NCBI RefSeq assembly: GCF_014595955.1
Contig: NZ_JABVCF010000015.1
Coordinates: 62,001 to 126,000 of the forward strand
DNA from: Pseudaminobacter soli (ex Zhang et al. 2022)
Lineage (GTDB): Bacteria; Pseudomonadota; Alphaproteobacteria; Rhizobiales; Rhizobiaceae
Direction: 5' to 3'
Length of the DNA: 64,000 nucleotides
Of the stretch, positions 16,327 to 41,960 are shown piece after piece. The translations under genes were made by a program, and so were the position numbers. A model generated the notes under the pieces. It ran no database searches. It was given only the letters and a program-made list of their open reading frames with translations, and was not told the origin of the DNA. Positions within the stretch are counted from its first letter, which is position 1; every line of letters starts with the position of its first letter.

Positions 16327-16439
16327 GCTATGCTCCTTCCGCTCGGCCGATCCAGGCAGTTGGCCGCCGCAACTTCCCACCTGCCACTGAACTGGATGAA
16401 ATGCGTACCGCCGCCCAAGGTGGCCGGTCCGCGCTAGCG

Positions 16440-21065: not shown

Positions 21066-22433
21066 CTACTGTCCGATAACAGCACTCGGCTGCATTCCCG
21101 GGCCGGTTCCATCTGGAGCAGCCATGGTTGAGGAATTGAGTGTCTCCGGAGCGTAAAACGCCTTGTTCGCCTCAACCGAGACCTCGATCACATCCCCTGG
21201 CTTCACTTCCGTATTTTCACTGGCCAAGAGGGTGTGAGCCGATTTCTGGTCGCGCCGGAAGATCGAAATCCGCACGGAGCCTTGCAGATCGTCAAAGGTC
21301 CTCTGTTCACCGTAAGAGAAGAGGAACAGGAGCTTGTCGGCCACGGACCTGATCTGGCTCTGAACCTTTCCCAACTCCACTTGCGTGTCCTGGATCTTAG
21401 CGATCAGCTCGATTTCATGGCTCTGGCGCTTTCGTCGTATTTCACTCTCCAGGTTCATCATATCCTGCTGCTTCTGCGTCTGCTGAAGCTCAGACTGCGC
21501 AAGGTCAGCGCGGTAGCTGGTCTGCGCCCTTTCCATCGTCAGGATGTTTGTATTTGTGATCAAGCCCTGTTTCCGCATAGCTCGGAGGGCTTCCAGTTCC
21601 TTGAGCTGGATGGTCGCGGTCTTTTCACGCTCCTCCCGAGCCACTGCGATCATGTCTGCTTCTTTCCTGGCCCGAACCAGCGAGGCCTCGAAATAGGAAA
21701 TCTCGTCCTTGAACGCGGCCAGTCGCGCCTCCAGTTGCGCCTGCTCGGACGCGACGATCTCTCGGATCAGGCTTGGGCCAAGTTCGATCGGCGGGTCAGA
21801 TGGGGCAACAAAGGACTTGTCCTGCCGATTTTCGGCATTCAGACGGGCCAGTTGAACGTTCAGCCGATATTCCTCGAGCGTCAGGTTTGCGCGCGAACTG
21901 CGCAGATCCGCGATTTCCAGGGCCGGTACGCCCCCCCTCGTCGCGCTGGGCCGGAAACCGCCGGCTATGGCAAGGGCATGGCGAACGGTAATTCCCGGCT
22001 GAAACGGGTACGATCCGGGATTCGCCACGGCTCCGGCAATGAAGAACGGCCGATGCTGGCCAATCTCGACTTTCACGAAGGGTTCCAGGATCAGCTTCTG
22101 CTGCTGAAATGCCAGCTGAATGGCCTGGGAAAGAGCACCGGGAGTGAAGCCGCGTGCCGGAATCTCGCCCAATAGGGGAAGCGATATCGAGCCCGCATCG
22201 TCGATGACGACTTCCAACGGATAGGACGGCTCACCGAGCACGGAGACGCGAAGGACGTCGCCGGTGTCGAGAGTGTACCCCTCGGCATAGGAAATGTCGG
22301 CGGTGAGCAAGGCAAGCAATACAACGAGACTGCTGCAGATTGCGCACGCACAACTGGACGCATCCCGAAGCCTTGCAAACAACCATCGGCACCAAGACGC
22401 GGACAGGAGATTCTGATCGGAACAACGGTTCAT
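21066..22433 (-). CDS. Polysaccharide export protein, ExoF/Wza family
   Basis: From the ATG at 22433, which has GGAG about 8 bases upstream, the product is 455 residues. A hydrophobic leader ending near TADISYA precedes a Poly_export domain (GYTLDTGDVLRVSVLGE), an SLBB-type region (FFIAGAVANPGSYPFQPGITV) and a long coiled coil rich in Glu, Gln and Arg (about 240-380). This is the ExoF layout of rhizobia rather than that of lipoprotein Wza, since no lipobox cysteine follows the leader. It should act with the ExoP-like kinase in periplasmic and outer-membrane export. A longer start at 22502 is possible. Confidence 0.9.
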   Translation of the reverse strand: MNRCSDQNLLSASWCRWLFARLRDASSCACAICSSLVVLLALLTADISYAEGYTLDTGDVLRVSVLGEPSYPLEVVIDDAGSISLPLLGEIPARGFTPGALSQAIQLAFQQQKLILEPFVKVEIGQHRPFFIAGAVANPGSYPFQPGITVRHALAIAGGFRPSATRGGVPALEIADLRSSRANLTLEEYRLNVQLARLNAENRQDKSFVAPSDPPIELGPSLIREIVASEQAQLEARLAAFKDEISYFEASLVRARKEADMIAVAREEREKTATIQLKELEALRAMRKQGLITNTNILTMERAQTSYRADLAQSELQQTQKQQDMMNLESEIRRKRQSHEIELIAKIQDTQVELGKVQSQIRSVADKLLFLFSYGEQRTFDDLQGSVRISIFRRDQKSAHTLLASENTEVKPGDVIEVSVEANKAFYAPETLNSSTMAAPDGTGPGMQPSAVIGQ

Positions 22434-22576
22434 CCCTCGTACTCCGGCTGCCACGCATGAGTAGTGTTGGTCGAAGGGGCGCTCTTCAAAGTGCATCGTC
22501 ATGAATGAGGGCGATCAAGGTCGCGCCTCGGGAAGATCTGCCGTGCTTGCGGTCGCGGTGTCTCGTGAAGGAGGAC

Positions 22577-23728
22577 TCACTGGAGCCTCGACGCGAGCAC
22601 CGACCGGTAAACCATCTCGACGTGTTCGCACATCGCGTCCAACCCCCAGGACGAAAGGTCGGTGCGCCTTGCGCCGTCGGCCAGCCGGGCGCGAAATGTC
22701 TCGTTCTCGAGAAGATCGGCGATGGCCGCCGCCGCGGCACTCACGTCGTCTGCCGGCGTCAGGATTCCATTGACCCCATGCCGCACAACCTCTTCGATTC
22801 CGGGCAAACGCGATGCGACACAGGGGCGGCCGCCCGCCAGGTACTGCATCACGACGCGAGGCAATCCCTCCCGCATCGACGTCAGCACACAGACGTCAGC
22901 CAGGCTGATCAGGCGTTCGGGCTGGGAATGATAGCCAATCAGACGAATGCTGCGCGCCACGGGCGACCGTGCGATCGCCTGCTCCACGGCGGGTCGCGCC
23001 GGGCCCTCGCCGGCCAGGAGCAGCCGCACGTTCGGAATCCGGTCGACCACCTGCGTGAATGCTTCGATCAACTCGATATGGCGCTTTCTTGGTTCCAGCG
23101 CAGCCAGCATCAGGACCACTGGCGGCTTTGGCGCACCGGCTGCCGTCTCTAGGAGCCGATGCGGTTCCTCCGGCCAGCGGGCTTGCGAGAATCGGGACAG
23201 ATCGAAACCGGAGTGGACGATATGGTGCTGATCGGGGCTGCCGATTTGATGGGCCAGACAGATGTCGCGCATCGCCTGGCTGACATGAATGAAAGCTTGC
23301 GTGGGTCTCGCCGCCAGACGTTCAGCGGCCAGGAATGTCATCTTCCGCACATTGCCAACATGCACGAACGGCAGGATGTGCACGCCATGGATGATGCCTG
23401 GAATACTCGCTTGCCCGGCGGCGAGGCGGCCAATGATGCCGGCTTTGCTTTGATGGGTATGCACGATGTCAGGCCGCCTTTCGCGCATGAGGCCTTTCAG
23501 TTGCCCAAAGGCCGAAATGTCATGGGGCGGTGATAACGGGTGAACGAGCGCGTCGAGCGTTACCACCCGAAGGACCCCGGTAATGGACGCTCTCAAAATC
23601 GGGTCATACTCCCGACCGTGAACCAGCGTTACCTCGTGGCCGTTTCGCACTTGAGCGAAGCAGCACGACAACGTGTTCTCCTCGGAGCCCGCCCGAAGCA
23701 GTCGAGTCAGAACATGGACGATTTTCAT
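22577..23728 (-). CDS. Glycosyltransferase family 4
   Basis: The product is 383 residues from the ATG at 23728, where the Rossmann strand MKIVHVLTRLLRAGSEENT begins. The GT-B fold is shown by the N-terminal acceptor domain (VHTHQSKAGIIGRLAA) and the C-terminal GT4 region, with LAALEPRKRHIELIEAF and the EX7E-type stretch REGLPRVVMQYLAGGRP. It should add a sugar from a nucleotide donor to the lipid-linked repeat unit at the cytoplasmic membrane. The donor sugar cannot be read from sequence. The frame extends to 23842 without a better start. It is the only conventional glycosyltransferase I recognise in the island besides the ExoY-type initiator. Confidence 0.9.
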   Translation of the reverse strand: MKIVHVLTRLLRAGSEENTLSCCFAQVRNGHEVTLVHGREYDPILRASITGVLRVVTLDALVHPLSPPHDISAFGQLKGLMRERRPDIVHTHQSKAGIIGRLAAGQASIPGIIHGVHILPFVHVGNVRKMTFLAAERLAARPTQAFIHVSQAMRDICLAHQIGSPDQHHIVHSGFDLSRFSQARWPEEPHRLLETAAGAPKPPVVLMLAALEPRKRHIELIEAFTQVVDRIPNVRLLLAGEGPARPAVEQAIARSPVARSIRLIGYHSQPERLISLADVCVLTSMREGLPRVVMQYLAGGRPCVASRLPGIEEVVRHGVNGILTPADDVSAAAAAIADLLENETFRARLADGARRTDLSSWGLDAMCEHVEMVYRSVLASRLQ

Positions 23729-23919
23729 GAGACTGGGTCTCGTGATACCGACAGATCGTGAATCCGGGCTGGAGAGGCCGGAAGCGGAACCGCAACTGTC
23801 TTCAGGATTGGTCTTCCCCGTCACCGGGACCGGCTCGTCCATGGAAGGGTTCGGGACGGCCGAACGCCTCGCCGTTACGTCGTGGGGATGAAGATCGGCG
23901 GCTGAACCTCTGCCCTTTC

Positions 23920-26581: not shown

Positions 26582-28681
26582 CTAATTGCGGTAGTAGGTG
26601 TTGGAGACGCTGCCTTCGAGCGACGTGTAACGGCCATATTTCGGGAGCTTCGGTTCGTCGACCATGGTCAGCGCGATGCCGGCAATCTTGGAGCGGCCAC
26701 CGAGATGCCGAATTCCCTCGGCAACGACCTCGCGCGAGGTTTCGCGCCACTTCACCACAAAGACCACCCTGTCGACATACGGCGCTAGGATCGAGGCGTC
26801 GGCCGCCGGGCCCACCGGCGGTGCATCGATGATCACTGTATCGAACGTCTTCTGAAGCTTCTCGAGCAGCGCCCGCATTCGCTTCGAGGCAAGCAGGGCT
26901 GGCGGGTTCATCGTCCTTGTACCAGCAGGCAGGACGTAAATTCCCGACCGTTCGTCCAGGTGAATTGCGTCTTTCGCCTGTATCGGCAAGGTCAGGAGAT
27001 CGACCAATCCGGCCTTCTCCGTCATCCCAAAGAAGTTTGTCGCAGACGAAAGCCGCAAGTCGGCGTCGATCACCAGAACCCGCTCGCTGTCGGCCGCGGC
27101 GGAACGGGCAAGGCTCAACACCAGTGTGGTCTTTCCCTCGCCCGGCATCGCTGATGTCACCAACATCACGCGTAGTGGACGCTCGGATTCCGGCACCCTC
27201 TCGATCGCCAAGCGCAGTCGCCGCACGGCTTCGCTATATCTGGAGAGAGGCTTGCGCTCGAGATAGGCAACCGGTTGAGCTTGGGACTTGTCAGTTCCTG
27301 ACCAGTTCGTCATTCTCGGCATGGAGGCAAGGACCGGAACGGCCAACGTCTCTTCCACCTGGCGCGTCGCCATAAAGCCGGAAGCGAAAAGTTCGCGAAG
27401 CAGGGCACCCCCGCCGCCAAGGAAAATGCCGAAGACCAGACCGAGTGCCGCAAAAAGTGGCCGGTTCGGGAAGCTTGGGCCATCTGGAACATTCGCCGGC
27501 GCGATCACACGCACGCCGCTGCTAAGAAGCGTCGATCTTTCTTCGGCAATTTTGGCGCGTGACAGGAATGTCTCAAAGAGTTCCTTGTTCGCCGCAGCAA
27601 TTCTTCCCAGATCACGCAACCGCACGCCAACCCGATCCTCGGTCTCGGACCGGCTGGACACCGACGCCAGAGCCTGCGTCAGAGCGGCTTCGCGGGCTTC
27701 GGCCGCTTCGGCTTCATTCTTCAGGTTCCCGACAAGACGCTGGACCTCGGCGCTGATCTGCGCCTCTATGTCGTGAAGCTCCGCTTGGGCGGTCATCACC
27801 TCCGGATGACGTTCGCCATATCGCAACGAAAGGTCGGCTACCCGTCGGGTCACCGTAGCCTGCTGAGCTCGAAGCGCACTGACGACAGCGGATTGCAATA
27901 CATCCGGTATCGATTGAGCGTCTCCCCCCGTCCTAACCAGCTTCTCCGCCTGCTGATATTTTGCACGTCGGGATGCGAGCTCTGCGCGCGCATTGATCAA
28001 TGCGATATTCAGCTCAGAAAGCTGCTGTTCGGTCACACTTCCTGACTTGGTCGCCAGAAGGTTGTGCTCAGCGCGAAATTTCTCCACATCATCTTCCGAT
28101 TGGCTTAGTTGCAATCGGAGAACGTCTGCCCGTTCGCTGAGCCAGGTGGCCGCTTTTTTGGCACTCTCATAGCGGGACTCTATTCGATCAGCGACATAGG
28201 CCTCGGCGATTGCGTCTGCGAGCGACATTGCTTGTTCTGGATCGCGGGACGTCACGGAAAGTTCAAGAACGTCTGACAGGCTAACGCGGGAAACGCCCAC
28301 AGCTTTCTTGAGCCATTCCAGGGCTCCAGCGCCTAGATTGGGATCTTCCTCCAGATTTTTACTATCGACGACCTTCTGAAGAAGCACGGCTGAACTCAGA
28401 ACTGCGAGTTGACTTTCAATGAAAGTTGAGTTTTCTCCAGTTCCCGCGTTACTATAATCCTGCTGTTGCGCCGTATAATCTTTAGGTGAATCAAGCAATA
28501 TTTGCACATATGATGTGTACAGCGGAGGAATCGCATATGAAATTGTAACAAGCATAAGGAAGGTGCTTGCTGCAATTAACGAAATTAGCTTCCATCGTCG
28601 ACGAATAAAATCAAGTATATCTCGAACGTCGAGCGATTCATGTCCCGGTATTTTGAACTCATTGTCAGATGAAGCGTGCAT
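26582..28681 (-). CDS. Polysaccharide co-polymerase/tyrosine autokinase (Wzc/ExoP-like)
   Basis: The 699 residues contain an N-terminal Wzz domain with a membrane helix (about 32-52), a periplasmic coiled coil (about 165-350), the second helix with a proline-rich entry (NVPDGPSFPNRPLFAALG) and a cytosolic BY-kinase. The kinase has Walker A SAMPGEGKTT, A' VLVIDADLR and B DTVIIDAPPV. The C-terminus is short but has a tyrosine cluster (KYGRYTSLEGSVSNTYYRN) for autophosphorylation. It should control chain length and export of the EPS with the ExoF-like protein. It is first of the minus-strand transcription unit and is preceded by a 470-base spacer that presumably holds the main promoter. Confidence 0.94.
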   Translation of the reverse strand: MHASSDNEFKIPGHESLDVRDILDFIRRRWKLISLIAASTFLMLVTISYAIPPLYTSYVQILLDSPKDYTAQQQDYSNAGTGENSTFIESQLAVLSSAVLLQKVVDSKNLEEDPNLGAGALEWLKKAVGVSRVSLSDVLELSVTSRDPEQAMSLADAIAEAYVADRIESRYESAKKAATWLSERADVLRLQLSQSEDDVEKFRAEHNLLATKSGSVTEQQLSELNIALINARAELASRRAKYQQAEKLVRTGGDAQSIPDVLQSAVVSALRAQQATVTRRVADLSLRYGERHPEVMTAQAELHDIEAQISAEVQRLVGNLKNEAEAAEAREAALTQALASVSSRSETEDRVGVRLRDLGRIAAANKELFETFLSRAKIAEERSTLLSSGVRVIAPANVPDGPSFPNRPLFAALGLVFGIFLGGGGALLRELFASGFMATRQVEETLAVPVLASMPRMTNWSGTDKSQAQPVAYLERKPLSRYSEAVRRLRLAIERVPESERPLRVMLVTSAMPGEGKTTLVLSLARSAAADSERVLVIDADLRLSSATNFFGMTEKAGLVDLLTLPIQAKDAIHLDERSGIYVLPAGTRTMNPPALLASKRMRALLEKLQKTFDTVIIDAPPVGPAADASILAPYVDRVVFVVKWRETSREVVAEGIRHLGGRSKIAGIALTMVDEPKLPKYGRYTSLEGSVSNTYYRN

Positions 28682-30036: not shown

Positions 30037-30915
30037 TTACGAGGCTTCGTCAAATCGCACGACCGCGAAGACCGTACGGGAAAGTATGACGAGATCGCTC
30101 CATAGCGACCAATTCCGCACATACTGGCTGTCAAGCGCAACGCGGCTCGAATAATCGGTGCTGCTTCTTCCCGTCACCTGCCACAGCCCGGTGATACCTG
30201 GCCTCGCAGCAAGATAGTCTGCGACAAAGTCTTCATAACGGCTGAGCTCGTCGGCAACGATTGGCCGCGGCCCGACACAGCTCATTTCACCCCTGAGGAC
30301 ATTGAACAACTGGGGAAGTTCGTCGAGGCTCGACTTTCTCAGAATTTTGCCAAGGAAAGTGATGCGGGGATCGTTCTTGAGCTTTCTGATCTCTGCCCAC
30401 TGGCGGGCAGCCTCCGGATCGCGCGCAAGAAACTCACGCAGCACCTCGTCCGAATTGGCCACCATCGTTCGAAACTTGCGGCAGCTGAAGGGCTTTCCAT
30501 CGAAGCCGACCCGAGTGTGCGCATACACGGCCGGACCTCCCATTGTCGCCCTTATCAGCAGGAAGACCATGAGCATGATGGGAGAGGCCAGTGCCAGAGC
30601 GCACAGGGCGATCACCACATCCGCGAGCCTCTTGGTCCGACCACCGAGCGGCGCCGGCGCCGCCGTGTCTGTTTGTCTTGCCGCATTATGCGGGTCGCTC
30701 ACGGTCGCCTGGGTGGTCTCGCCCGCCGTGTCGACGGCTGGGAGCGCCGCCGGGGTTGCACTCCGCCAGCCAAGACGCACGCCCAGATCGTAGTGCGGCT
30801 TGACGTCCTTAGACACCCGGCTTGACGCCTTCCGAGTAAGGCTGAAATTTCTGCGGGGACTTTCTCTGCCGAAGACATTGGTCATCATAGGGGTGTCCGC
30901 CTTTTGGCTATTCAT
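30037..30915 (-). CDS. exoY: ExoY-type sugar transferase (EPS-initiating phosphoglycosyl transferase)
   Basis: The 292 residues have a variable N-terminus of about 90 and one membrane hairpin/helix (about 97-122, DVVIALCALALASPIMLMVFLL). The conserved bacterial sugar-transferase domain follows, with KFRTMVANSDEVL, DPRITFLGKILRKSSLDELPQ, LFNVLRGEMSCVGPRP and RPGITGLWQVTGRS. It transfers a sugar-1-phosphate to undecaprenyl phosphate, the first step of repeat-unit synthesis. The extended N-terminus has no predicted fold that I recognise. The gene is the last of the minus-strand genes right of 30 kb and converges on the small membrane protein gene. Confidence 0.92.
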   Translation of the reverse strand: MNSQKADTPMMTNVFGRESPRRNFSLTRKASSRVSKDVKPHYDLGVRLGWRSATPAALPAVDTAGETTQATVSDPHNAARQTDTAAPAPLGGRTKRLADVVIALCALALASPIMLMVFLLIRATMGGPAVYAHTRVGFDGKPFSCRKFRTMVANSDEVLREFLARDPEAARQWAEIRKLKNDPRITFLGKILRKSSLDELPQLFNVLRGEMSCVGPRPIVADELSRYEDFVADYLAARPGITGLWQVTGRSSTDYSSRVALDSQYVRNWSLWSDLVILSRTVFAVVRFDEAS

Positions 30916-31715: not shown

Positions 31716-31813
31716 GATTCCCTCCAATAAATCATTGTCATATTATTGTAATGTACTCCAGATAAAAAAGCAACAATTCTGTGAAATTTAATGATAACAG
31801 TAGGAACTGTTCT

Positions 31814-32815
31814 TTATACCTTTGCTCGAATATCTAGATCAAATAAAGTGCGGACGATGCGGCGTGCAAGATCGACTGGCCTACGCCGGGTCAAACCATC
31901 GCCGCGCGAAACCCGCCTTACACCCCACGCCACGTTCCCGGCCAGGCGCAACGGAGCGCCCATGACAGGATGCTTCGCCGTGAAAACGCGCCGCCAGTGC
32001 TGAAGGCGAACAATCGGGCGCCTTGCCCATTCCGCCGGGATCCTGATGTCAAAGAATTGGTGCAGGGCCAGGAGTTGGGCATCGAGCGCATTGCGTGCAG
32101 TCTGATCCGGCAACGATGCGCGCAGTGCCTTCCAGTCGACGCCTTCGGCTTCTGCCAATTCCGCCAGATCATGAAGGTGCCTGAGATCGATCCTTCCGCG
32201 CCAGTAATCTCCCTCCTTGAGAAGATCATGCAGAATCCAGTGCAAAGCACGCGACTGCACCGAGGGGATCTTTGCCAGAAGGCCGTTTCGCTCGACCAGG
32301 TTTGGGGTCTCGAAGCCGCCGGCGCGACTTTGACGGAGTTCCAGGATTCCGACATCCTGCGGACGCGCCATGCCGCGCGCGCCAGTTACCTGCACATAAC
32401 CCAGCCTCTCGAGGCAGGCTCGGGCGCGCAGCTCGTCGGCTGCCTCGACACTGACGTCCAGATCGCTCGCCATTCGGCTGGGAAGACGGTCGACAGGGGA
32501 TAGGAACAGGGGAACGGCCCCCTTGAGCAGGACCGGAGTGATGCCGCAGCGGTTGAGGGCCGCGACGGCCTCATTCAGCTGAGCACGCAAGCGCAAGTTC
32601 CGCTGTCGATTGGATTCATGAATGAACGAGAGGTACTCCCGCGCGTCCTGCGGGAGCCGATCGATCTCGCCGGTGCGCGCGAGAGATGAAAACAATGCAG
32701 GTGTAAGCAAGGTGTGATTTGCCAGCGCAATCACTGCTCGCACATCAGGCGTGGCAATAGGGCCGCCGCGAAGTCCGGCGATCAAGGCCTCGAGCGCGTT
32801 ACCAGCGCGTATCAT
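31814..32815 (-). CDS. Nucleotidyltransferase-family protein (NTP_transf_5-like)
   Basis: The 333 residues from the ATG at 32815 overlap the upstream kinase gene by four bases (ATGA). The core LNRCGITPVLLKGAVPLFL followed by SRMASDLDVSV is the nucleotidyltransferase-fold signature, with the two acidic metal ligands in DLDV. A helical C-terminal domain contains HWILHDLL and GRIDLRHLHDLAELA. Related proteins occur in EPS and peptide-modification loci beside PqqD genes. It might attach a nucleotide or phosphoryl group to the adjacent peptide or to a sugar. No reaction is established. Confidence 0.82.
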   Translation of the reverse strand: MIRAGNALEALIAGLRGGPIATPDVRAVIALANHTLLTPALFSSLARTGEIDRLPQDAREYLSFIHESNRQRNLRLRAQLNEAVAALNRCGITPVLLKGAVPLFLSPVDRLPSRMASDLDVSVEAADELRARACLERLGYVQVTGARGMARPQDVGILELRQSRAGGFETPNLVERNGLLAKIPSVQSRALHWILHDLLKEGDYWRGRIDLRHLHDLAELAEAEGVDWKALRASLPDQTARNALDAQLLALHQFFDIRIPAEWARRPIVRLQHWRRVFTAKHPVMGAPLRLAGNVAWGVRRVSRGDGLTRRRPVDLARRIVRTLFDLDIRAKV

Positions 32816-33966
32816 CGGCACGTTTTCCTGATCAGCCTTACCGCGTCGTCGAGCCCGGAATAGGTCAGGCAATAGGCCTCTGCCGATCCGATGACCTGGG
32901 CCAAAGCCTCGAACCCGCTGCCACCCAGTTCGCGGCCAGGCGCAAACGCACCGTTGAGAAGACCGTGCAAGGCGCCGACTGAGTCTATGGGCTCCAGACA
33001 TGCAGGCGAGTCATGGTCACGCCGCAGCAGGACTATCCAGCCGACCGGCGTGGGTGAGGACGTGGCGGCTGATAACCCGCTCGGCACAACGTAGCGTACG
33101 CGTTTGCGGTCTGGGCGGCGAAAGACCGGAGCGGCACCGAGATCGGGGCAGTATTCCGCCAGAAGTGGCCATGCTCCCGCCTTGACGGCCGGAGCAAACG
33201 GCAGGCCAAGGCCGTGCCCCATTGAATCCAGGACTGTCACGTCGTCCGCGGCAAAGCCGAACCCCGCATGGGCCAGAGCGAGCGTCAGCGTCGTCTTGCC
33301 GGCGCCCGGGCTGCCGCAAAGGAGCAGCATGCGGTCGTTCTTGATGAGGGCTGCCGCATGGAGCGCAAGCTCATAGGCGCCGTGCTCGAGCGCATCCGTC
33401 AACAACTGCCCCTTCAGCACGGTGGCCAGCTCGTCGGGAGAGCAGGAGTGGATCCAGTCGCCATTCCGGAACAGATGGACCCTGTCACCGCCTTCGACGA
33501 CCTCGATCCGTATGTCGGCTATTCGTTCCCGTCGAACCTCGAGATGCCGAAATATCGTCATCGTGGGAAAGGCCAGGGCAGCGGGATAGACGATGCGTAC
33601 ACAAAGCCCGCGCACCGCAACCAATTGGCTTACATGCCCGTGCGATGGAATTTGGGAGGGGGCACGCGGCCGGATCAGGTCAAGCCGCTCCCAGTCCGAG
33701 AGCGCGACCTCGACCTGGCCGCGCGCCTCGTGCGCGTCAACGCTGTCGTTCGCAATCCGGACCGCGATTGCTTCGAGCGGCAGGCCGTCTTCCAGCGCGT
33801 GCCAGATGTCTGCGGAGGTGTCGCTGAGCGCAAAGATGGCGCGCCGCGATGCGCTGAACAGGATATTCTGCCCCCTGATGCGCACCAACCGACCCTGGGT
33901 CACCAACGGTGCGTCTTCGGCAGAGCAGGACGCACCAGTTAGATCAGTCAGCCGCTGCGGCTTCAT
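32812..33966 (-). CDS. PqqD-domain/HprK-related kinase fusion
   Basis: The 384 residues from the ATG at 33966 (AAGGA about 9 bases upstream) contain two parts. Residues 20-95 are PqqD-like (FSASRRAIFALSDTSADIW). Residues 150-384 resemble HprK-related kinase A, with P-loop CGSPGAGKTTLTLALA and FGFAADDVTVLD, the HPr-kinase-type acidic motif. PqqD domains bind precursor peptides, and HprK homologues phosphorylate Ser in some lasso-type peptides, so a leader-guided peptide kinase is plausible. The usual separate PqqD and kinase genes (the HPr-rel-A set as I recall it) appear fused here. The start overlaps the antiporter gene by 23 bases. Confidence 0.83.
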   Translation of the reverse strand: MKPQRLTDLTGASCSAEDAPLVTQGRLVRIRGQNILFSASRRAIFALSDTSADIWHALEDGLPLEAIAVRIANDSVDAHEARGQVEVALSDWERLDLIRPRAPSQIPSHGHVSQLVAVRGLCVRIVYPAALAFPTMTIFRHLEVRRERIADIRIEVVEGGDRVHLFRNGDWIHSCSPDELATVLKGQLLTDALEHGAYELALHAAALIKNDRMLLLCGSPGAGKTTLTLALAHAGFGFAADDVTVLDSMGHGLGLPFAPAVKAGAWPLLAEYCPDLGAAPVFRRPDRKRVRYVVPSGLSAATSSPTPVGWIVLLRRDHDSPACLEPIDSVGALHGLLNGAFAPGRELGGSGFEALAQVIGSAEAYCLTYSGLDDAVRLIRKTCR

Positions 33967-35269
33967 TGATCGTCGTCCTTGCATTTGCGGGTTGGCGAGA
34001 TGGCCGTTCGTAGCCCGTGCTGCCGACATTGCCGGCGAGTTCGAACACATTTGGACTGCGCACGAGCCGCCAGCGCAGCCACAGGCCCGTGGCCAGGGAG
34101 GTCAGGATCGAGGCGAGCACCAGCGCTGTGAACATGCGCTCGTCGATGATGCCGGCAGCATACGCCACGCTTGCCAGCACGATTCCAGGCCCGCCGCGCG
34201 TGTTCATGGCGACGCCGTAGTCAAAAGCGCGAGCCCAGGCGACGCCGGCAAACCTGGCGGCAATGGTTGAGCTCAGCAGTTTTACGGCAGTGCTCGCACC
34301 GATGAAGAAGAGCGTGAGCGAGCCGTCGAACTGATGCGCCAGATCGAGCCGCAAGCCGACGAGCGCGAAGTAGATCGGCACGAAGAACCATATCGAAATG
34401 TCGGCGATGTGTTGTCGCACCGCGGCGAGATGGCGTGAGGAAAACCGCGCCATGACGAGACCGGCCACCAGCGCGGCGAAAACGATATTGACATTTAGGA
34501 GGCTGGCAGTGGCGACGAAGACCAGGCACAGCAGCAATGTGTATCCGGTAAGCGACGCTTCGCTGAATTTCCCGAAGACCCTTCGACGGAGCGCACGCAC
34601 GACTGCAGGCGCAACGAAAAGCGCGACAAGCACGAAGGCGAGCGTAACTGCAATCACACGCCCGATGCCCGCCGCATCGGCCGAGTCGCCGTGCTGAACT
34701 GCAGTAGCGATGGCAAGCACGGTCCAGAGAATGACATCCTGGATCGTCGCGGCGCCAATGACGTTGCGCGCGAAAGGAGTATTCATCAGGCCAAGGTCGA
34801 GGAAAATGCGCGAGATGACCGGGATCGACGTGACGGCCACCGCAATGCCCATCACCAGTTGGAAGGCCAAAGGGTCGCCGAGCCGTGCCTGCGTAAAGAG
34901 CGACGCGCCTGCATAGCCGAGCGCGAATGGAATCATGAGCCCACCCACGACCTGCGCCGCGACCATGCGTCCCGATCCTTCCGCGCCTTCAGCCTGCATT
35001 TTGAAGCCGGCGGTGAACATCAGCAGCACGAGGCCGAACCAATAGAAGGCCGATAGCAGGGCACCCTGCGCCGGAAACCCGGAAAACAGCCATTTCTGCG
35101 CTTCGGGCGAGACCAGGCCCAGTACCGACGGACCGAGCACGATCCCGCCGACGATCTCGCCAATCACCCGCGGCATCTTCAGTCGTTCGAACACGTGACC
35201 ACCGCACAGTGCGCCGGCAAGCAGCAGCACGAGGGACAGAAAGAAGCGCGCGAGTTCGGAATCAGTCAT
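33944..35269 (-). CDS. Cation:proton antiporter (KefB/NhaP-like)
   Basis: The 441 residues from the ATG at 35269 form about 12 hydrophobic helices of the CPA2 family. Typical segments are RVIGEIVGGIVLGPSVLG near the N-terminus, NVIGAATIQDVILWTVLA in the central transport region and FDYGVAMNTRGGPGIVLAS late. No C-terminal TrkA-N domain is present. It should exchange Na+ or K+ for H+ across the inner membrane. Its place between the APS-kinase-like gene and the PqqD-HprK gene, with tight spacing, puts it in the same transcription unit, but its part in polysaccharide production is unclear. Confidence 0.88.
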   Translation of the reverse strand: MTDSELARFFLSLVLLLAGALCGGHVFERLKMPRVIGEIVGGIVLGPSVLGLVSPEAQKWLFSGFPAQGALLSAFYWFGLVLLMFTAGFKMQAEGAEGSGRMVAAQVVGGLMIPFALGYAGASLFTQARLGDPLAFQLVMGIAVAVTSIPVISRIFLDLGLMNTPFARNVIGAATIQDVILWTVLAIATAVQHGDSADAAGIGRVIAVTLAFVLVALFVAPAVVRALRRRVFGKFSEASLTGYTLLLCLVFVATASLLNVNIVFAALVAGLVMARFSSRHLAAVRQHIADISIWFFVPIYFALVGLRLDLAHQFDGSLTLFFIGASTAVKLLSSTIAARFAGVAWARAFDYGVAMNTRGGPGIVLASVAYAAGIIDERMFTALVLASILTSLATGLWLRWRLVRSPNVFELAGNVGSTGYERPSRQPANARTTINEAAAAD

Positions 35270-35307
35270 GGCCCTGACTCTGCTGACACGTCTGAAGGTT
35301 GCTGGGA

Positions 35308-35904
35308 TCAATCCGGCTGCGGCGCGGCCCGTCGGCCGGAACCGTAGGAAGCGGCGATGCGTGCTGCCAGTTCGTCCAGGGAATGCGATTCGGTGTCGAG
35401 GACGAGGTCCGGTCTGTCCGGCGGCTGATAGGTACTGTTATAGCCGATGAGGGTGTCGATCTCGCCGCGCATCGCCTTGCCATACAACCCCTTCGGATCT
35501 CTTTGCGCGCAGGTCTGCGTGGAGCAGGCGACATAGCCGATCGTCAGGTTTCTGACGTGCGCGCGAACGTGCTCGCGAGCATCCTGACCAGCGGTAAGGG
35601 CGGCGACCACGACATGGAAGCCGGCGTCCGCCGCCTTGTTGGCAAGATGCACCAGGATGGAGACCACGCGCAGACGGTTGTCCGCGCCAAATCCGAAGTC
35701 GGCTCCAAAGAAATCACGAACCTCATCCCCGTCAAACAGAATGGCGGGAATCCCCTCCTTGCGGAGGTCGGCAACGACGCGGGTCGCGAGGGTCGTCTTG
35801 CCGGCCGAGGTTGGCCCGAGCAGCCATAGCACGGTTCCCGGTCGCGGGAGCTCAACGTCTTGCAAGGGTGCCGTTCCGAAATGCTTCGCTCCGCTCACCA
35901 TCAT
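35308..35904 (-). CDS. cysC: Adenylylsulfate (APS) kinase-like protein
   Basis: The 198 residues show P-loop GPTSAGKTTLATRV, FDGDEVRDFFGADFGF (APS kinases usually have DGDNVRxGL), DPKGLYGKA and GYNSTYQPPDRPDLVLDT. All align with CysC. The enzyme should phosphorylate APS to PAPS with ATP, giving ADP. Some usual positions differ: Asn to Glu in the DGD motif and a reshuffled Arg-rich stretch after it. A different nucleotide substrate is therefore possible, as for the CysC-like kinase in Campylobacter phosphoramidate synthesis. It follows the ATP-sulfurylase fusion gene by 16 bases, which favours APS. Confidence 0.82.
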   Translation of the reverse strand: MMVSGAKHFGTAPLQDVELPRPGTVLWLLGPTSAGKTTLATRVVADLRKEGIPAILFDGDEVRDFFGADFGFGADNRLRVVSILVHLANKAADAGFHVVVAALTAGQDAREHVRAHVRNLTIGYVACSTQTCAQRDPKGLYGKAMRGEIDTLIGYNSTYQPPDRPDLVLDTESHSLDELAARIAASYGSGRRAAPQPD

Positions 35905-35920
35905 CTATCCCCACCTGGGC

Positions 35921-38101
35921 CTAATCCTGGAATACGGCGTGTTTCATCATCAACTCCGCGCGCACCACATCCTGCACCTCGGACCGCATCATCCAGTTTG
36001 GCAGCGCCTCTCCGGCCTTCAAGGCTCGCCGGATCTCCGTGCCGCTGATCGACCTGGCAGTCGTGCAGGCGTTGATGTCGACATAGCGCTCGGACTGGGT
36101 GTCGTAGCCGACTGCATCGAAGAAGATCGGCTCTATGCCGAGATCGCCGAGTTCGTCGAACAGTTCCCTATTGGCGTTCGCGCCGTAAAAACCTCCGACG
36201 CCGGTGTGGTCCCGCCCGACGATGAAATGGCTGCAGCCCATGTTCTTGCGGCAAAGGGCTGTGAAGACTGCCTCGCGAGGGCCGGCAAATCGCGGGTAGG
36301 TGATGAAGCTTGCGAGCACCACCTTGCCGGGAGGATAAATGCCGTAGTCCAGCATGGCCTGGTAGCCGTCGAGAATAAGATGCGGCACGAAATCTCCGCT
36401 CTTGGCGTGTCCGATTACCGGGCTGATCAACAGGCCGTCGGCGTAGGTGCGGTCCAGGGCGGCGATCTGGATCGCCTCGTGGCCGCGATGGACCAGGTTG
36501 CGCCCGTGGAAGGCCACCACGCGGCTCCAGCCTTTGTGCCCGAAGAGCATGCGCAGTTGGACCGGCGTCAGGTCGTAGCGCCGGTACGGCACAGGCAGCG
36601 GCTGGATGAGGGTCACGTTACCGGCCAGGAAGTGTCCGCCGCGCGCGAGCACCCGGGCCACGCCGGGATGCTCGCGCGAGTCGGTGCCGAACCATTTGCG
36701 CGCCAGAACCTCCGGCTCGAGCTGGTGAGTTTCGGATATGTCGAGAACGGAATGCGGCAACCCGCTCGTGCTTGTAAGCAGAACGCGGTCGCCCGTCGCA
36801 AAACGGCTTGCGCTTTCCTTGGGCACAGGCAGCACGATCGGCATCGTCCAGGCCAGGCCGGAAGGAAGCCGGTTGTGTTCGAGCACGCTCTCCAGGCACG
36901 CTTTGTCCATGAAACCGCACAGGGGTGAGAAAGTGCCGCGGGCGATCTGTTCGACGTCGGTCAATTCATCGTCGCTGACCGTGATCACGGGCATGTCCTG
37001 GATTGCCAGATCCTCGGCCGGTCCGAGCGTTCGGGAGACCAGGCGCCCACCATGAGGCTCGATCCCGGACGTGAGGTCTGAGGGGCGCACTTCTATGGCG
37101 CGCGCGCCGCCACTCACATTCTGCTGGAACTGCTGGACGACCTTCACCACCATCCTGGCACAGTTCACTGGATATTGGCCGATGGCCGTTTCTGCCGCGA
37201 GCACAAGCCCATCGGCGCCGTCCACGAGGGTGTTGTAGATATCGTTGACTTCCGCCCGCGTCGGCGTTGGCGCACTGGTCATCGACTCGAGCAGGTTGGT
37301 CGCGACATAGACCTTGGCGCCATGCGCCTTGGCCTGTTGAATGATACTTTTCTGAACCTCGGGGATCTGCTCGATCGGGACTTCCCGAGACAGGTCGCCG
37401 CGGTCGATCAGGATCGCATCCGATTTCTCGGCAATTGCACCCAGATTGCGCAAGCCGCTCAGGCACTCGATCTTGGAGATCACGGTTGCGCCGGCGCCGG
37501 CATGAGCCCGGATCGCGTCGACGTCCGACGCACGACGGGCGAAGGAAAGCGCGAAATGACGGATGCCCATCCTGGCGCCGATCGAGATGGCCGCAAGATC
37601 CTTTTCGGTCGTGGGCGGCATCTCAATCTCGCGTTGCACGGTGACTGCCTTGTTCTGACCGACCTCTCCGCCATTCAGTACTCTCAGCACGACTTCGTCG
37701 TCGTCTTTCTCTACGACCTGAGCCAGGACCGCATTGAAGTCGATGCTGATGAAATCGCCGACTTGCAGTTTGCCGACGATGTAGGCCGGGTAGAGGCTGA
37801 TGCTGAACTGGCCGCCCGCTGCCGGCCGCGCACGGGCGGTCAGGAACCGGCTTTCCCGCACCGTGACCTTGCCGTCGGCCAGCGGGCCCGTGCGGATTTG
37901 CGCACCTTCTGTATCGAGACAAATCGGAACGGACGTCCGCCTCTGGATGAAATTCACGATCCGCTCGAGATCCTCGATCTTCGTGTGTGACAGATTGAGG
38001 CGCAACAGCGAGGTGCCGGCACGTTCCAGCCAGTGGATGACCCTGTCATTGAGGGATGCCGGACCCAGCGTGCACAGGAGTTCGACTTGCCTGTCATTCA
38101 T
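35921..38101 (-). CDS. Pyruvate kinase-ATP sulfurylase fusion
   Basis: The 726 residues from the ATG at 38101 (AAAGGTG upstream) join two enzymes. Residues 1-330 are pyruvate kinase A and B domains: LRLNLSH, DTEGAQIRTG, catalytic-lysine motif VISKIE, IDRGDL, ATNLLESM and PTRAEVNDIYNTLVDGAD. The C-terminal regulatory PK domain is absent. Residues 340-726 are a full-length sulfate adenylyltransferase with FHGRNLVHRGHE (usual QTRNPxHRAHE; His pair kept, Gln changed), VGRDHTGVGGFYG and SISGTEIRRAL. PK would remake ATP from PEP and the ADP released by the adjacent APS kinase. This coupling is inference; activity of either half is unproven. Confidence 0.9.
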   Translation of the reverse strand: MNDRQVELLCTLGPASLNDRVIHWLERAGTSLLRLNLSHTKIEDLERIVNFIQRRTSVPICLDTEGAQIRTGPLADGKVTVRESRFLTARARPAAGGQFSISLYPAYIVGKLQVGDFISIDFNAVLAQVVEKDDDEVVLRVLNGGEVGQNKAVTVQREIEMPPTTEKDLAAISIGARMGIRHFALSFARRASDVDAIRAHAGAGATVISKIECLSGLRNLGAIAEKSDAILIDRGDLSREVPIEQIPEVQKSIIQQAKAHGAKVYVATNLLESMTSAPTPTRAEVNDIYNTLVDGADGLVLAAETAIGQYPVNCARMVVKVVQQFQQNVSGGARAIEVRPSDLTSGIEPHGGRLVSRTLGPAEDLAIQDMPVITVSDDELTDVEQIARGTFSPLCGFMDKACLESVLEHNRLPSGLAWTMPIVLPVPKESASRFATGDRVLLTSTSGLPHSVLDISETHQLEPEVLARKWFGTDSREHPGVARVLARGGHFLAGNVTLIQPLPVPYRRYDLTPVQLRMLFGHKGWSRVVAFHGRNLVHRGHEAIQIAALDRTYADGLLISPVIGHAKSGDFVPHLILDGYQAMLDYGIYPPGKVVLASFITYPRFAGPREAVFTALCRKNMGCSHFIVGRDHTGVGGFYGANANRELFDELGDLGIEPIFFDAVGYDTQSERYVDINACTTARSISGTEIRRALKAGEALPNWMMRSEVQDVVRAELMMKHAVFQD

Positions 38102-38228
38102 GGCAGCCACCTTTGGTTCGTGATGTGCTCTGAAATTCAGCCGGCGCCGGCGCGCACTCCGGCGGGCGGCATGCGAGTTGTTGCTGCGGTGACGGGTTGC
38201 GTTCTGTCGACCCCGCCCAACTGCCCGG

Positions 38229-39254
38229 TCACGGCGTCTCGTCCGGGAATCGGCTCACACCCGGATGCGAGGCGACCCACCGCCGGCGGGCCGCGGCCCA
38301 ACATGCACGAGCGTCAGCGCCCGTCATCAGCCCAAAGCCGGGCGGCGGCAATGGAAGCTCCGACGGTATTGGCTCGTCAGGGAGCCACAGCAGCATGTTG
38401 TCGCGGCTTTCGATCAATTTTTGCCAAGTTCGCCGTAGCCGGGGAAAGCCGCGCATCTTTGCGGAGGCCAGCGCGAAGATCGAGCCAGTGATTTTGAGGC
38501 TGGGAGACACCTCAGTGGCCTTGATCGGCGCCTGGTGGGTAAATTCTCCCTTGGCGAGATAGGGCTGCATGCGGATCAGCGTTCGGTCGATCGCGACCGT
38601 CTGATCCATTCCGTCCCGATTATTGGACGCTGGATCCAGGCTGATCCCCGAGAAACAGCCGTCGAATAGGCAATCTTCAATGGCGCCGCTGAGGAGATAG
38701 TCGTTTTCGACCGCGTCATCCCTGATTTCGCTCAGCCAGCTTCCCTTCAGGCGAAAGCCATCGGCTCGATTGGCAAAGCGAATGCCGTCCCAGCAGCGGC
38801 GTGCCCGAACCCCCTCGATTGTTGCGCCAGTCGTTCCGTCCCTGACAAGAAGAGCCGCACTATTGCAATATGTTGGCCGCCAGTCCGACGTCAGCGGCAC
38901 CTGGCCATCGAAGCGTCCGCCGATGAAGCGCACTCCAGGACAGTTGCGAATGACCACTGGATAGGAATTCGTTGGCAGCGTCCCGACTTCGCAGCTCAAG
39001 ACGAGTCCCGGATCGCTGTTCCTGCTGTTCGAGACGATGAAGGAGGCATGTTGCGCGTCGATTGTCGCTCCCATCGGGAGATCGCGAGCTACCCATGGTT
39101 TGTAGCCGTACTCTCCGCTTAAAACGATTCGCGCCCCTTTCCCGTTGGCATCCGACTGATCGGGCATCGACTGGCTGCGTGCCCGGGCAGGCTGCGGCAA
39201 CAGCGGGAACACAGGGCAAAGGCCAGCGACGCGGATGAATGATCGACGGTCCAT
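38229..39254 (-). CDS. Tat-exported right-handed beta-helix protein
   Basis: The start at 39254 has a strong AGGAGG 7 bases upstream and gives 341 residues. The N-terminus MDRRSFIRVAG with a hydrophobic stretch is a twin-arginine signal. The body has repeated short strands with Asn and Gly turns (FIGGRFDG, LLVRDGTTGATIEGVRARRCWDGI, AIEDCLFDGCFSGISL), typical of pectate-lyase-like parallel beta helices. Catalytic residues were not identified. In a polysaccharide locus such proteins are lyases, epimerases or surface-polymer binders. It starts two bases after the stop of the P-loop kinase gene, so both are co-transcribed. Confidence 0.78.
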   Translation of the reverse strand: MDRRSFIRVAGLCPVFPLLPQPARARSQSMPDQSDANGKGARIVLSGEYGYKPWVARDLPMGATIDAQHASFIVSNSRNSDPGLVLSCEVGTLPTNSYPVVIRNCPGVRFIGGRFDGQVPLTSDWRPTYCNSAALLVRDGTTGATIEGVRARRCWDGIRFANRADGFRLKGSWLSEIRDDAVENDYLLSGAIEDCLFDGCFSGISLDPASNNRDGMDQTVAIDRTLIRMQPYLAKGEFTHQAPIKATEVSPSLKITGSIFALASAKMRGFPRLRRTWQKLIESRDNMLLWLPDEPIPSELPLPPPGFGLMTGADARACWAAARRRWVASHPGVSRFPDETP

Positions 39255-39256
39255 TC

Positions 39257-40132
39257 CTAGCCTCCTACTGGCGGGAGCCTGTCGCGGCAGGCGAGCAACA
39301 GCCCCCTCAGCGCCCGCTCGGCCACCTCGTCGGGCGATGCCAACGGCCCGACGTCGACGGCCGCCAGCACTCCTGCCCGATTTGCTGCTCGCGTCCCTGT
39401 TTTTAAGTCGGCTGCCATCTCGCGGCATGCACGATCTGCCGCAACCCAGACCTCAAGATCGCCATCGGGAGATGCCTTTTGCATACGCGAGGATTGGTCG
39501 CCTCTCTTGAGGAGACGCCCCTGGGCAGTGACGATATCGCCGCGCAGATGCAGAAAGACAACGTCATCCACGCCGATGGAAGATAGAATGTCGAGCCAAT
39601 TCTCGGAGGTTCTTCTGCGTCTGCTCTTCAGGAATACAGACCAGAACCCCTGTAACAGTCCCTGATCCAGAACGAGAATGGAGGCGCTGCTGGATCTCTT
39701 GTCGAGGATATATGCCGACAGATAGCACAAGTGCCATATCTCTCTGACCAGATCGATCGCCGTCGCTTGTCCGCCCTCTGCAACGAACCGTGCAATTCTC
39801 ACGCTTAGCCGGCGAAACTCACGATCCGCCAGTCGCGAACTGATGATGCCAAATCGATAAAGCTGCCTTCCAACAAAGGTTCGCTTCTCGTAGGCAGATC
39901 GATCCTCGTCTACCGCTAGGTTGCACTGTTGCAATTTGTTGCCGAGCAGATTGGCGACCGTCGTCTTTCCAATGCCGGGAAGGCCGAAGAATTCCACAAA
40001 ACGAACGTTTGTTTGGACGCGCGCTTCGGCGTCCGTCAAAGGGTCGAGAAGCTTCTGCAAAGTCATTCGATTTGAGTCCGTGCGGTTCCCAGAAAGCGAA
40101 ACGGCTGGCTTCCTCAGGTGCTCAGCATTCAA
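39257..40132 (-). CDS. P-loop kinase-like protein of polysaccharide locus
   Basis: The 291 residues carry Walker A FGLPGIGKTTVANLL near 48-62. A helical body has ILVLDQGLLQGFW (a Walker-B-like strand followed by catalytic-type residues) and VVFLHLRGDIVTAQGRLLKRGDQSSR, resembling the lid region of nucleoside/thymidylate-type kinases. No substrate can be named. The TTG start overlaps the TGA of the ligase gene as TTGA; an ATG at 40066 is the alternative. Related P-loop proteins occur in EPS loci, and a similar domain lies in the fusion at 23.9-25.7 kb. Confidence 0.7.
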   Translation of the reverse strand: MNAEHLRKPAVSLSGNRTDSNRMTLQKLLDPLTDAEARVQTNVRFVEFFGLPGIGKTTVANLLGNKLQQCNLAVDEDRSAYEKRTFVGRQLYRFGIISSRLADREFRRLSVRIARFVAEGGQATAIDLVREIWHLCYLSAYILDKRSSSASILVLDQGLLQGFWSVFLKSRRRRTSENWLDILSSIGVDDVVFLHLRGDIVTAQGRLLKRGDQSSRMQKASPDGDLEVWVAADRACREMAADLKTGTRAANRAGVLAAVDVGPLASPDEVAERALRGLLLACRDRLPPVGG

Positions 40133-41397
40133 GCATGCGCCGCTGGCATCTTCAGCTCAGCATTCGCACCAAGGCCGGATCTGACTGATCGCTGCAGGCC
40201 ACGGTAGAACATCAACAGCGCCAGCGGCAGCCAAAAGAACGGGGCGGTCGACGGACCGAAGGAATCGCTCATCTGGTTTGCGACGACATAGTTCAGCACG
40301 GATACCGCTGATCCGAGAACCATCACATCGGCTTTCCCCGTGTGCTCGCTCGCCCCCTTGGCGTTCAGCGTGAGAAGGATCGCGCTGATCAGGTAGGTTG
40401 CGACCAGCAGAACCATGACGATGATCAGTGCGAGGCCGGGCACCCCCAGCGTTCTGAAGTATTCAATAAGCAAGTTGTGACTATGGGGGGCTATATCGCC
40501 CACCGGCTGTCCTGCGCCCACTCCCGTGAACGGATGCAAGAGGCCCAAATCGATCGAAATCGACCACAGTCGCTCTCGCGACACAATGGAATGCGCCTCG
40601 CCACCGGTAAGCTGGACTGTCAACAGCCTGTAGGCGCGTGGATTTAGGAATTGCAAAGTCAGGACACTTGCCCCAAGCAGCAAGGGAGCCGTGAGTACTC
40701 CGGCAATTATCGAAAGCGGGCGCTGTCTCCTTATTGTGAGATAGATTCCGTATAGCCCGAAGAAAATGCCAAGCCCTGAAATGCCAACGATGAAGTTGGT
40801 TTTCGAGCCCGACTTAACCAGGCCGAGGACGACAGCAGCCAGGCAGCCCCAAAGAAGAACCCGATACTTGCGGGAGATGACCAGCACGGCAGCAACAAGC
40901 GGCAGGCCGGCCGACAAGGCAATGCCCAGTTGGTTCGCATGCTTGAAGTAACCTTCAGCCCGGTCGGAGAATCTGGCGTCGCCCATGCCGAGCATCACGA
41001 GGCAGGATGTCACGACGCTCATGACGATGACTGCCAACACAATCCTATCAACTGCCTCAAAACCGTCAGGCCTCATTGAAATCACCAAGACCGCTGGAAT
41101 CAGGGCGAAGCCAAACACCTGGGCAAAAACCGCGCGCATGGTCCTGATCGGATTATCGGCATGAAGCATAGATAAGAGCGAAAGAACGATGATTGCGGTA
41201 GATGTCGTCAGCACGGCAGTCGCAAAGGCAGCCTCGGTCCGATGAAGGCGCGTTGTCAGTTGGCCATAGAAGACGACGCTCACCACGGCGCAATACAAAC
41301 CCAGGAAAAATGAAATCGAGCCATCAGTTCCGGCAATCCGCGTGGCACCGGGGAACCATATCGACACGACGAGCAGGAGGACGGAAGCTTGCAGCAT
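40129..41397 (-). CDS. O-antigen ligase/polymerase-family membrane protein (Wzy/ExoQ-like)
   Basis: The 422 residues from the ATG at 41397 form about 10-12 hydrophobic helices. A large periplasmic loop near 290-320 contains SRERLWSISIDLGLLHPFTGVGAGQP and HSHNLLIEYFRTLGVPGL, the Wzy_C/WaaL signature with a catalytic-type histidine in PHSHN. It should polymerise repeat units or ligate the polymer. With the flippase and ExoP-like kinase it completes a Wzy-dependent pathway. The frame is open up to 41520 (TTG), so up to 41 further residues are possible; ribosome sites are weak for both choices. Confidence 0.85.
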   Translation of the reverse strand: MLQASVLLLVVSIWFPGATRIAGTDGSISFFLGLYCAVVSVVFYGQLTTRLHRTEAAFATAVLTTSTAIIVLSLLSMLHADNPIRTMRAVFAQVFGFALIPAVLVISMRPDGFEAVDRIVLAVIVMSVVTSCLVMLGMGDARFSDRAEGYFKHANQLGIALSAGLPLVAAVLVISRKYRVLLWGCLAAVVLGLVKSGSKTNFIVGISGLGIFFGLYGIYLTIRRQRPLSIIAGVLTAPLLLGASVLTLQFLNPRAYRLLTVQLTGGEAHSIVSRERLWSISIDLGLLHPFTGVGAGQPVGDIAPHSHNLLIEYFRTLGVPGLALIIVMVLLVATYLISAILLTLNAKGASEHTGKADVMVLGSAVSVLNYVVANQMSDSFGPSTAPFFWLPLALLMFYRGLQRSVRSGLGANAELKMPAAHA

Positions 41398-41960
41398 AGG
41401 GTGGTCCGTGGACGCCAAGCTACTGGAGACACCGAAGATCGACTGCGGGGAGTCACTCACGCGCCGCCGAGTTACATGCCCAGGGCGCTCATATCTCTCG
41501 CGGCCCACATGCGATACCAACCATCAAACCGCGATTGAGGTAGTTCCTAAGCCAGGATTCCGTATGGACGGAAAGCGCAGAGTATCTTTCTCATGAGAAA
41601 GGCTGCCGCAGTTCGGGTGAAACTCATCCCGAAATCCTGTTTGATGTGCTCTTAGCCCCTCAACGGGAGTCTGACTAGCGGCGAACATATTACAGGATAT
41701 TGATCAAACTTGAAATGTAATAAGACTGAAATTTGCCTCTACATCTGGACTTAGTCGACAATATATCACCAACCAATAGAGAGACACCCAACCAATATCA
41801 TGTTACTTGAGTATTCGATGATGTCCGAGCTGCCTAGCTCAAGTATATACTTTATCACCGTGGTTACAACGTTCGGACAGTAGCCGGGCGGCTTGGGAAC
41901 GTTGGCGGCACTCAAGAGGCCGAGCCGGTCTTCAGGAGAAATTTTGTTAGACCCGACCTA
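41398..41960. other. AT-rich intergenic region upstream of the ligase gene
   Basis: About 560 bases lack a convincing gene, apart from a possible N-terminal extension of the ligase up to 41520. The stretch 41680-41870 is strongly AT-rich against the genome and probably holds the promoter of the minus-strand gene string. A dyad with arms ACTTGAG (41805-41811) and CTCAAGT (41838-41844) is present; its function is unknown. Confidence 0.45.

Follow-up and report, generated by a model that had tools for sequence, protein, structure and literature searches.

A pyruvate kinase-ATP sulfurylase fusion beside an APS-kinase-like gene: a likely PAPS-supply module in a polysaccharide cluster of Pseudaminobacter soli

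The window analyzed here, a stretch of 64,000 nucleotides from Pseudaminobacter soli (ex Zhang et al. 2022) (contig NZ_JABVCF010000015.1, positions 62,001 to 126,000), contains a gene in which a pyruvate kinase (PK) is fused to an ATP sulfurylase (SAT). It is followed by a gene resembling those for adenosine 5'-phosphosulfate (APS) kinase (APSK). The features of these two genes are as follows.

35921..38101, minus strand: PK-SAT fusion gene, 726 amino acids (aa), frame open to a GTG at 38110, assigned by domain matches
37163..38092, minus strand: PK barrel including the B domain (PF00224)
37061..37120, minus strand: variable linker between PK and SAT, with a ratio of nonsynonymous to synonymous substitution rates (dN/dS) of 0.37 against about 0.09 in both catalytic domains
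36602..37063, minus strand: PUA_2 domain of ATP sulfurylase (PF14306)
35960..36580, minus strand: ATP sulfurylase catalytic domain (PF01747), with the motifs FHGRNLVHRGHE and GRDHTG in the motif table
35308..35904, minus strand: APS-kinase-like gene, 198 aa (PF01583), 16 bases downstream of the fusion

The open reading frame (ORF) of the fusion spans 35921-38110 on the minus strand and encodes 729 aa from a GTG start. Translation more likely begins at position 38101, giving 726 aa, because a Met is conserved there among relatives. In the 729-aa numbering, the PK barrel, PUA_2, and ATP-sulfurylase domains of Pfam cover residues 7-316, 350-503, and 511-717 with E values of 1.4e-70, 9.2e-39, and 1.2e-63, respectively. 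All three exceeded their cut-offs, with 238.4 bits for PF00224 (gathering score 30), 133 against 27 bits for PUA_2, and 214.8 against 24.3 bits for PF01747. PK_C had no Pfam match in the fusion, and the C (regulatory) domain is thus absent. The neighboring APSK matched PF01583 with an E value of 9.7e-33 (113.8 bits, cut-off 21.1) and has a P-loop, DGDxxR, and RDPKGLY. As it is a separate ORF, the window does not encode a single-polypeptide synthase of 3'-phosphoadenosine 5'-phosphosulfate (PAPS), in which SAT and APSK occur together. A preliminary description, made from the letters of the window, had reported the PK motifs LRLNLSH, ISKIE, RGDL, and PTRAE in one frame lacking a regulatory domain, followed by a full ATP sulfurylase and, 16 bases further on, a CysC-like gene. 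This anatomy was recovered in every part, and the HGRN of the sulfurylase and the DGDE of the kinase are present as quoted.

In total, 17 fusions were found, 14 of them in rhizobia-type loci and three in distant genomes (G964, G978, and G1232). The rhizobia-type loci comprise the window, nine named loci of Mesorhizobium and Ensifer/Sinorhizobium, two rhizobial megaplasmids, and G725 and G584, which belong to the same family as the window. The whole fusion occurs in the 13 other loci of this type with identities of 74-84%, and its frame is free of internal stops in 14/14, with four ambiguous residues in L016. Identity reaches 99.6% between L012 and L013, two fusions of M. amorphae, and 97.8% between L018 and L025; all were counted. 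L020, L021, and L022 were left out as duplicates of G725, G462, and G584, and L021/G462 and L018 were counted once. Alignment A1 omits L013, and alignment A2 omits L016 (4 X). The fusions of the three distant genomes are full-length as well, with a PK part 56-61% identical to that of the window. Pairwise comparison of the 14 rhizobia-type fusions (91 pairs, of which 90 were usable for the three domains and 86 for the linker) gave a median dN/dS of 0.088 for PK, 0.085 for the SAT catalytic domain, 0.185 for PUA_2, and 0.37 for the linker. Purifying selection acts equally on the PK and SAT catalytic domains. The preliminary description had named a sequencing error joining two genes as a possible objection; this, like a chance gene joining, is ruled out by the conserved full-length fusions and the purifying selection.

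The full fusion is sparse, occurring in 1/397 genomes at the level of the order (that of the window itself), 4/394 of the family, 3/385 of the class, and 2/398 of the phylum. These draws overlap and each includes the genome of the window; E limits were 1e-60 for order and family and 1e-80 for class and phylum. An APSK lies directly downstream in 16/17 fusions with gaps of -4 to 32 bases, while none was found beside the fusion in G964. In G1257, PK and SAT are split into adjoining separate genes, and in G871 a PK of the fusion clade (clade A) is followed by an APSK 4 bases later (L042:10563-12135). In G978, a PEP phosphomutase-nucleotidyltransferase fusion (L040:14716-16389) adjoins the PK-SAT-APSK genes.

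A second PK clade (clade B), about 31% identical, is unfused and lies in an APSK-SAT-PK operon. G041 and G081 were found via their SAT and share the order sulfotransferase, APSK, SAT, PK, and TauE-type transporter. The clade B PK profile had matches in 8/186 class genomes at E <= 1e-95, and these eight together with G041 and G081 make up the clade B set of ten loci. APSK, SAT, and PK are consecutive on one strand in 10/10 of them, spaced by -20 to 25 bases, in the reverse of the PK-SAT-APSK order of the fusions. The PKs are separate proteins of 474-497 aa, that of G041 with a PK_C domain. A sulfotransferase adjoins five of the ten loci, recognized by Pfam in G041, G771, G799, and G929 and by 87% identity to that of G041 in G081. 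The loci of G829, G950, and G953 sit among glycan genes, and in G932 a CPA2 antiporter 57% identical to that of the window precedes the APSK (L097:400-1632). Beyond these operons, a sulfotransferase stands beside the APSK in G1232 and adjoins a clade B PK in both PK loci of Komagataeibacter plasmids (L057:7148-8990 and L058:805-2644). The PK of this Komagataeibacter pair has no C domain and is annotated just as pyruvate kinase. Two further candidates, G964ST1 (L038:17209-18099) and its 53% relative in G932, carry one sulfotransferase motif only and no sulfotransferase Pfam match, and were not counted; G964ST1 had no PDB match either. Co-occurrence with cysC and sulfotransferases in relatives, which the preliminary description had proposed as support, is borne out by the APSKs directly downstream of 16/17 fusions and the sulfotransferases in or near many loci.

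Around the fusion, the window encodes the following genes.

33944..35311, minus strand: CPA2-type cation/proton antiporter, next to APSK in 14/14 rhizobia-type loci
32812..34050, minus strand: HprK-related-kinase-like gene (89 bits, under the family cut-off of 200)
31814..33001, minus strand: NTP_transf_5 nucleotidyltransferase-like gene (Pfam and synteny)
38229..39428, minus strand: conserved gene lying upstream of the fusion, unmatched in Pfam and NCBIfam
39257..40132, minus strand: conserved protein of P-loop type, no family score reaching its cut-off
40129..41520, minus strand: Wzy/O-antigen-ligase-type polymerase (PF04932)
30037..30915, minus strand: sugar phosphotransferase (Bac_transf)
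26582..28681, minus strand: Wzz/BY-kinase-type chain-length protein
22577..23842, minus strand: glycosyltransferase group 1
21066..22502, minus strand: polysaccharide export protein (Poly_export, SLBB)
16440..17327, minus strand: sulfotransferase (Sulfotransfer_3, E 4.4e-28), 18.6 kb from the fusion
14806..16443, minus strand: Wzx-type flippase (Polysacc_synt_3)

Its predicted gene content marks the locus as a polysaccharide cluster of the Wzx/Wzy type that includes a sulfotransferase, the probable user of PAPS. Wzy, the two uncharacterized genes, the fusion, APSK, the antiporter, the HprK-like gene, and the nucleotidyltransferase are syntenic in 12/13 other rhizobia-type loci. In the 13th (G584), antiporter, APSK, and fusion lie right beside homologues of Wzx and the sulfotransferase, and the contig ends just past the fusion. 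Within the family, a homologue of the window sulfotransferase was found in 3/3 other genomes that carry the fusion and in 0/4 that lack it; three of these four belong to the window's genus, including one at 85% completeness. Two genomes of the window's genus (G470 and G546) had no SAT match either. Since the sulfotransferase tracks the fusion and SAT matches are likewise missing from G470 and G546, the fusion locus behaves as an accessory island. Elsewhere, the genome of the window encodes an ordinary PK, CysN/C, and two proteins matching PF01507 (CysD/CysH family), of which one is encoded next to CysN/C. Because of these CysN/C and PF01507 genes, PK-SAT-APSK is probably not the housekeeping sulfate route. 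A promoter and terminator scan of 31500-42200 returned counts at chance level.

The residues expected of an active PK are in place. In the fusion, these are R34, N36, S38, H39, D63, R70, K151, K210, E212, R234, G235, D236, and T268, which correspond to R73, N75, S77, H78, D113, R120, K207, K270, E272, R294, G295, D296, and T328 of rabbit M1 and which are catalytic or ligand-binding. All 13 are invariant in 11/11 PKs of clade A and 12/12 of clade B (23/23 module PKs) as well as in 9/9 ordinary PKs, with 6 of the 14 rhizobia-type fusions included in the residue table and the PK tree. The clade A PKs share the signature D[ST]EGAQxR, LIDRGDLSR, and ATNLxESM. The preliminary description had named loss of PK or sulfurylase catalytic residues as its refutation. 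By sequence alignment, the 13 PK residues are intact, and the SAT keeps RN, HxxH, and GRDH, with the Q of QxRN replaced by H and the A of GRDHAG by T.

PK, SAT, and APSK likely form a dedicated PAPS-supply module for the sulfation of a surface polysaccharide. SAT would convert ATP and sulfate to APS and pyrophosphate (PPi), and APSK would convert APS and ATP to PAPS and ADP. With phosphoenolpyruvate (PEP), the fused PK would return the ADP from APSK to ATP at the place of use. Removal of ADP would spare APSK an inhibitory enzyme-ADP-APS complex, and the free energy of PEP would be added to the pathway. PAPS would be passed to the sulfotransferase of the Wzx/Wzy cluster, and a sulfated polymer would be the predicted product. 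The removal of PPi would be left to other enzymes, and channeling of nucleotides by direct handover is possible.

Passages of an earlier study (PMC3734648) state that ADP is produced by APS kinase, not SAT, and that APS kinases are inhibited by an enzyme-ADP-APS dead-end complex. In excerpts of a second study (PMC9885120), a PK/lactate dehydrogenase (LDH) system was necessary for PAPS formation in vitro by human PAPSS1, no ADP built up in its presence, and its authors ascribe the need for PK/LDH to relief of the ADP-APS dead end. Because the ADP comes from APSK in the account of PMC3734648, the biochemical partner of the PK would be APSK, and its pull on SAT would be indirect. Given the dead end of APSK and the result of the PK/LDH cascade, the natural PK would both recharge ATP and scrub ADP. 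G871, with PK and APSK and no PF01747 match, and G1232, in which the motifs of the fused SAT are lost, would fit such a partnership. The intact PK residues support a role in ATP regeneration, and the genomic evidence strongly supports a putative module of PK, SAT, and APSK tied to sulfotransferases and glycan genes. The proposal of the preliminary description, that the fusion channels ADP back to ATP and pulls sulfate activation forward for a polysaccharide sulfotransferase, is thereby partly supported and refined, as the pull on SAT would be only indirect. On balance, a PEP-powered PAPS factory would seem to exist in bacteria in at least two gene arrangements, perhaps independent, in which a specialized PK scrubs the ADP of APSK and, in one clade, the charger is fused to SAT.

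Several observations weigh against a PAPS supply of this kind, and are set out here together with the other explanations that draw on some of them. Scores were below the NCBIfam equivalog cut-offs for the PK part (TIGR01064, 273.0 against 306.4 bits), the SAT part (TIGR00339, 303.9 against 322.95 bits), and APSK (TIGR00455, 124.5 against 138.7 bits). AlphaFold models had a low mean confidence (pLDDT) of 40.9 for the fusion (9 sequences) and 58.8 for APSK (10 sequences) and are unusable as support. No APSK was found in the 19.9 kb seen around the split PK/SAT pair of G1257. G871 had no PF01747 match and no CysN over the cut-off, and hence no detected APS source, CysD not having been searched there. 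Among the clade B loci, no sulfotransferase was recognized in G883, G829, G950, and G953 among the matches listed, with 28 neighboring ORFs scanned, ten rescanned, and one contig of 7 kb. Downstream in G932, only the unrecognized sulfotransferase look-alike is present. No SAT or APSK occurs in the stretches seen of the Komagataeibacter plasmids.

Part of these observations concerns the PK itself. A293 (rabbit label) is D in 23/23 module PKs against 0/9 ordinary ones, G298 is replaced by S or A, Q329 by N in clade A or E in clade B, and R342 by K in clade B. T114, K115, and E118 are changed in module PKs and are variable among ordinary PKs too; the stretch DTKG[PA]E or DLQGPK of the nine ordinary PKs is D[ST]EGAQ in clade A and D[IV]PG[RK]K in clade B. 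Along with the ordinary PK elsewhere in the genome, these changes could suggest a PK domain acting as a PEP/ADP sensor that regulates SAT and makes no ATP. The 13 invariant positions, a constraint on PK the same as that on the SAT catalytic domain, and the separate PK proteins at the ten clade B loci (with PK_C in G041) argue against a sensor, which is quite improbable.

Changes were also found at the presumed substrate sites of SAT and APSK. Among clade A SATs, 8/9 carry H for the Q of QxRN and S or T for the A of GRDHAG, and HxRN is thus typical of the fusion branch. The canonical QxRN (QTRN in clade B) and GRDHAG are kept in 7/7 standalone and 10/10 clade B SATs; L003 and L004, the same genes as L054 and L052, were left out of this table, and SAT rows of L003, L004, and L006 read in wrong frames were not used. 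We take these motif positions to line the sulfate site. In G1232, the SAT part of the fusion retains a Pfam match (98.8 bits) and has lost RN and GRDH (FPTDEVAHKCH and PVDD); PK and APSK motifs are kept there, and a SAT with canonical motifs is encoded elsewhere in that genome. The G1232 fusion (L048:10463-12619) may retain a dead SAT domain as a scaffold. Where 6/6 reference APSKs carry an [IV]SP[FY][RK] loop, the APSK of the window reads ALTAG, as do the other rhizobial APSKs, and those of clade B read ALYA or VLYA. The APSKs of G978, G1232, and G871 keep ISP[FY] and do not have R at that place. As the residue following DGD varies across aligned APS kinases, DGDE says little, and on this alignment the lost loop is the notable change in APSK.

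The preliminary description had seen room for another substrate in the altered HGRN and DGDE. The former proved typical of its branch and the latter says little; given the SAT motif changes and the lost APSK loop, such a substrate is conceivable. The same module would then activate a compound other than sulfate, such as another oxyanion, or the kinase would act on another nucleotide conjugate, with PK still recycling ADP. The changed HxRN and GRDH[ST]G, the loop lost in rhizobial and clade B kinases, and the missing SAT and CysN matches of G871 point in this direction. The canonical QTRN and GRDHAG in all ten clade B SATs, which occur with the same kind of PK, and the sulfotransferases within or beside many of these loci point away from it, and a different substrate is considered unlikely.

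PK could also do no more than meet the general demand of the polysaccharide cluster for ATP and pyruvate and be linked to SAT as a convenience of the operon. The cluster holds other likely ATP users (the HprK-like and nucleotidyltransferase genes), and the Komagataeibacter plasmids pair PK and sulfotransferase without SAT. However, a fusion in one clade and mostly overlapping genes in the other, in opposite order, indicate a specific pairing with SAT and APSK in dissimilar surroundings, which makes a general supply very improbable.

In the PK tree, a split (93/86) separates clades A and B jointly from the nine ordinary PKs sampled. In the APSK tree, the rhizobial APSKs group with those of clade B (87/80), and those of G978, G1232, and G871 form a different lineage (98/94). 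Both trees are unrooted with long-branch warnings, and the G883 row of clade B is partial (116 aa) in the APSK alignment and tree. The common side of the PK tree, the shared change of A293 to D, and the APSK grouping would favor one old PK linkage, whereas the opposite order of the genes and the separate lineage of the G978, G1232, and G871 APSKs would favor repeated assembly.

Among known systems, bifunctional PAPS synthases (animal PAPSS1/2 and bacterial or fungal SAT-APSK fusions) likewise join sulfate-activation steps in one protein for PAPS. In the window, SAT instead has PK as its fusion partner, APSK is encoded separately, and ADP recycling would be encoded with the pathway. In algae, SAT-pyrophosphatase and SAT-APSK fusions place a helper enzyme on SAT that pulls the uphill reaction. 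Those helpers remove PPi, whereas the PK of the window would recharge ADP. NodPQ of rhizobia is of the CysD/CysN type and is not known to include a PK. As described in PMC4053727, NodPQ/NodH sulfation likewise has a dedicated second PAPS supply and its own sulfotransferase, with Nod factor as substrate, unlike the cluster of the window. The laboratory PAPS cascade with PK/LDH and PEP, in the excerpts of PMC9885120, uses PK to recharge the ADP of APS kinase and needs it for PAPS yield; it is a man-made mixture with human PAPSS1, whereas the genes of the window are naturally linked and fused. The NCBIfam pyruvate kinase PRK06739 (352 positions) is a PK barrel that, judging by its length, has no C domain, whereas the window-type PK is fused to SAT or paired with APSK. 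No PK-SAT fusion or PK-SAT-APSK operon was described among the titles and abstract openings listed in searches of an open-access library. SAT-APSK fusions and PK-coupled laboratory synthesis of PAPS are already known, and the genetically linked PK appears to be new. If the proposed role is true, a glycolytic enzyme was co-opted to power sulfation locally, and evolution solved the ADP-APS dead end the way biochemists later did. The gene would offer a single handle on how cells drive uphill sulfate activation and would flag polysaccharide clusters likely to make sulfated polymers, and the fused enzyme with its kinase could serve as a compact PAPS-regenerating catalyst.

Further features were observed in and around the cluster. 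The CPA2 antiporter adjoins APSK in all 14 rhizobia-type loci and in 1/10 clade B operons (G932). Within the polysaccharide cluster, an ORF of 609 residues (23920-25749) has a helix-turn-helix of the transposase type close to its N-terminus. At 10585-14634, the window encodes a protein of 1349 residues that contains cadherin repeats and a metallophosphatase domain, near which ABC transporter and HlyD-type genes are located (17393-21024). Most of the rhizobial loci compared have homologues of this protein downstream of their nucleotidyltransferase gene.

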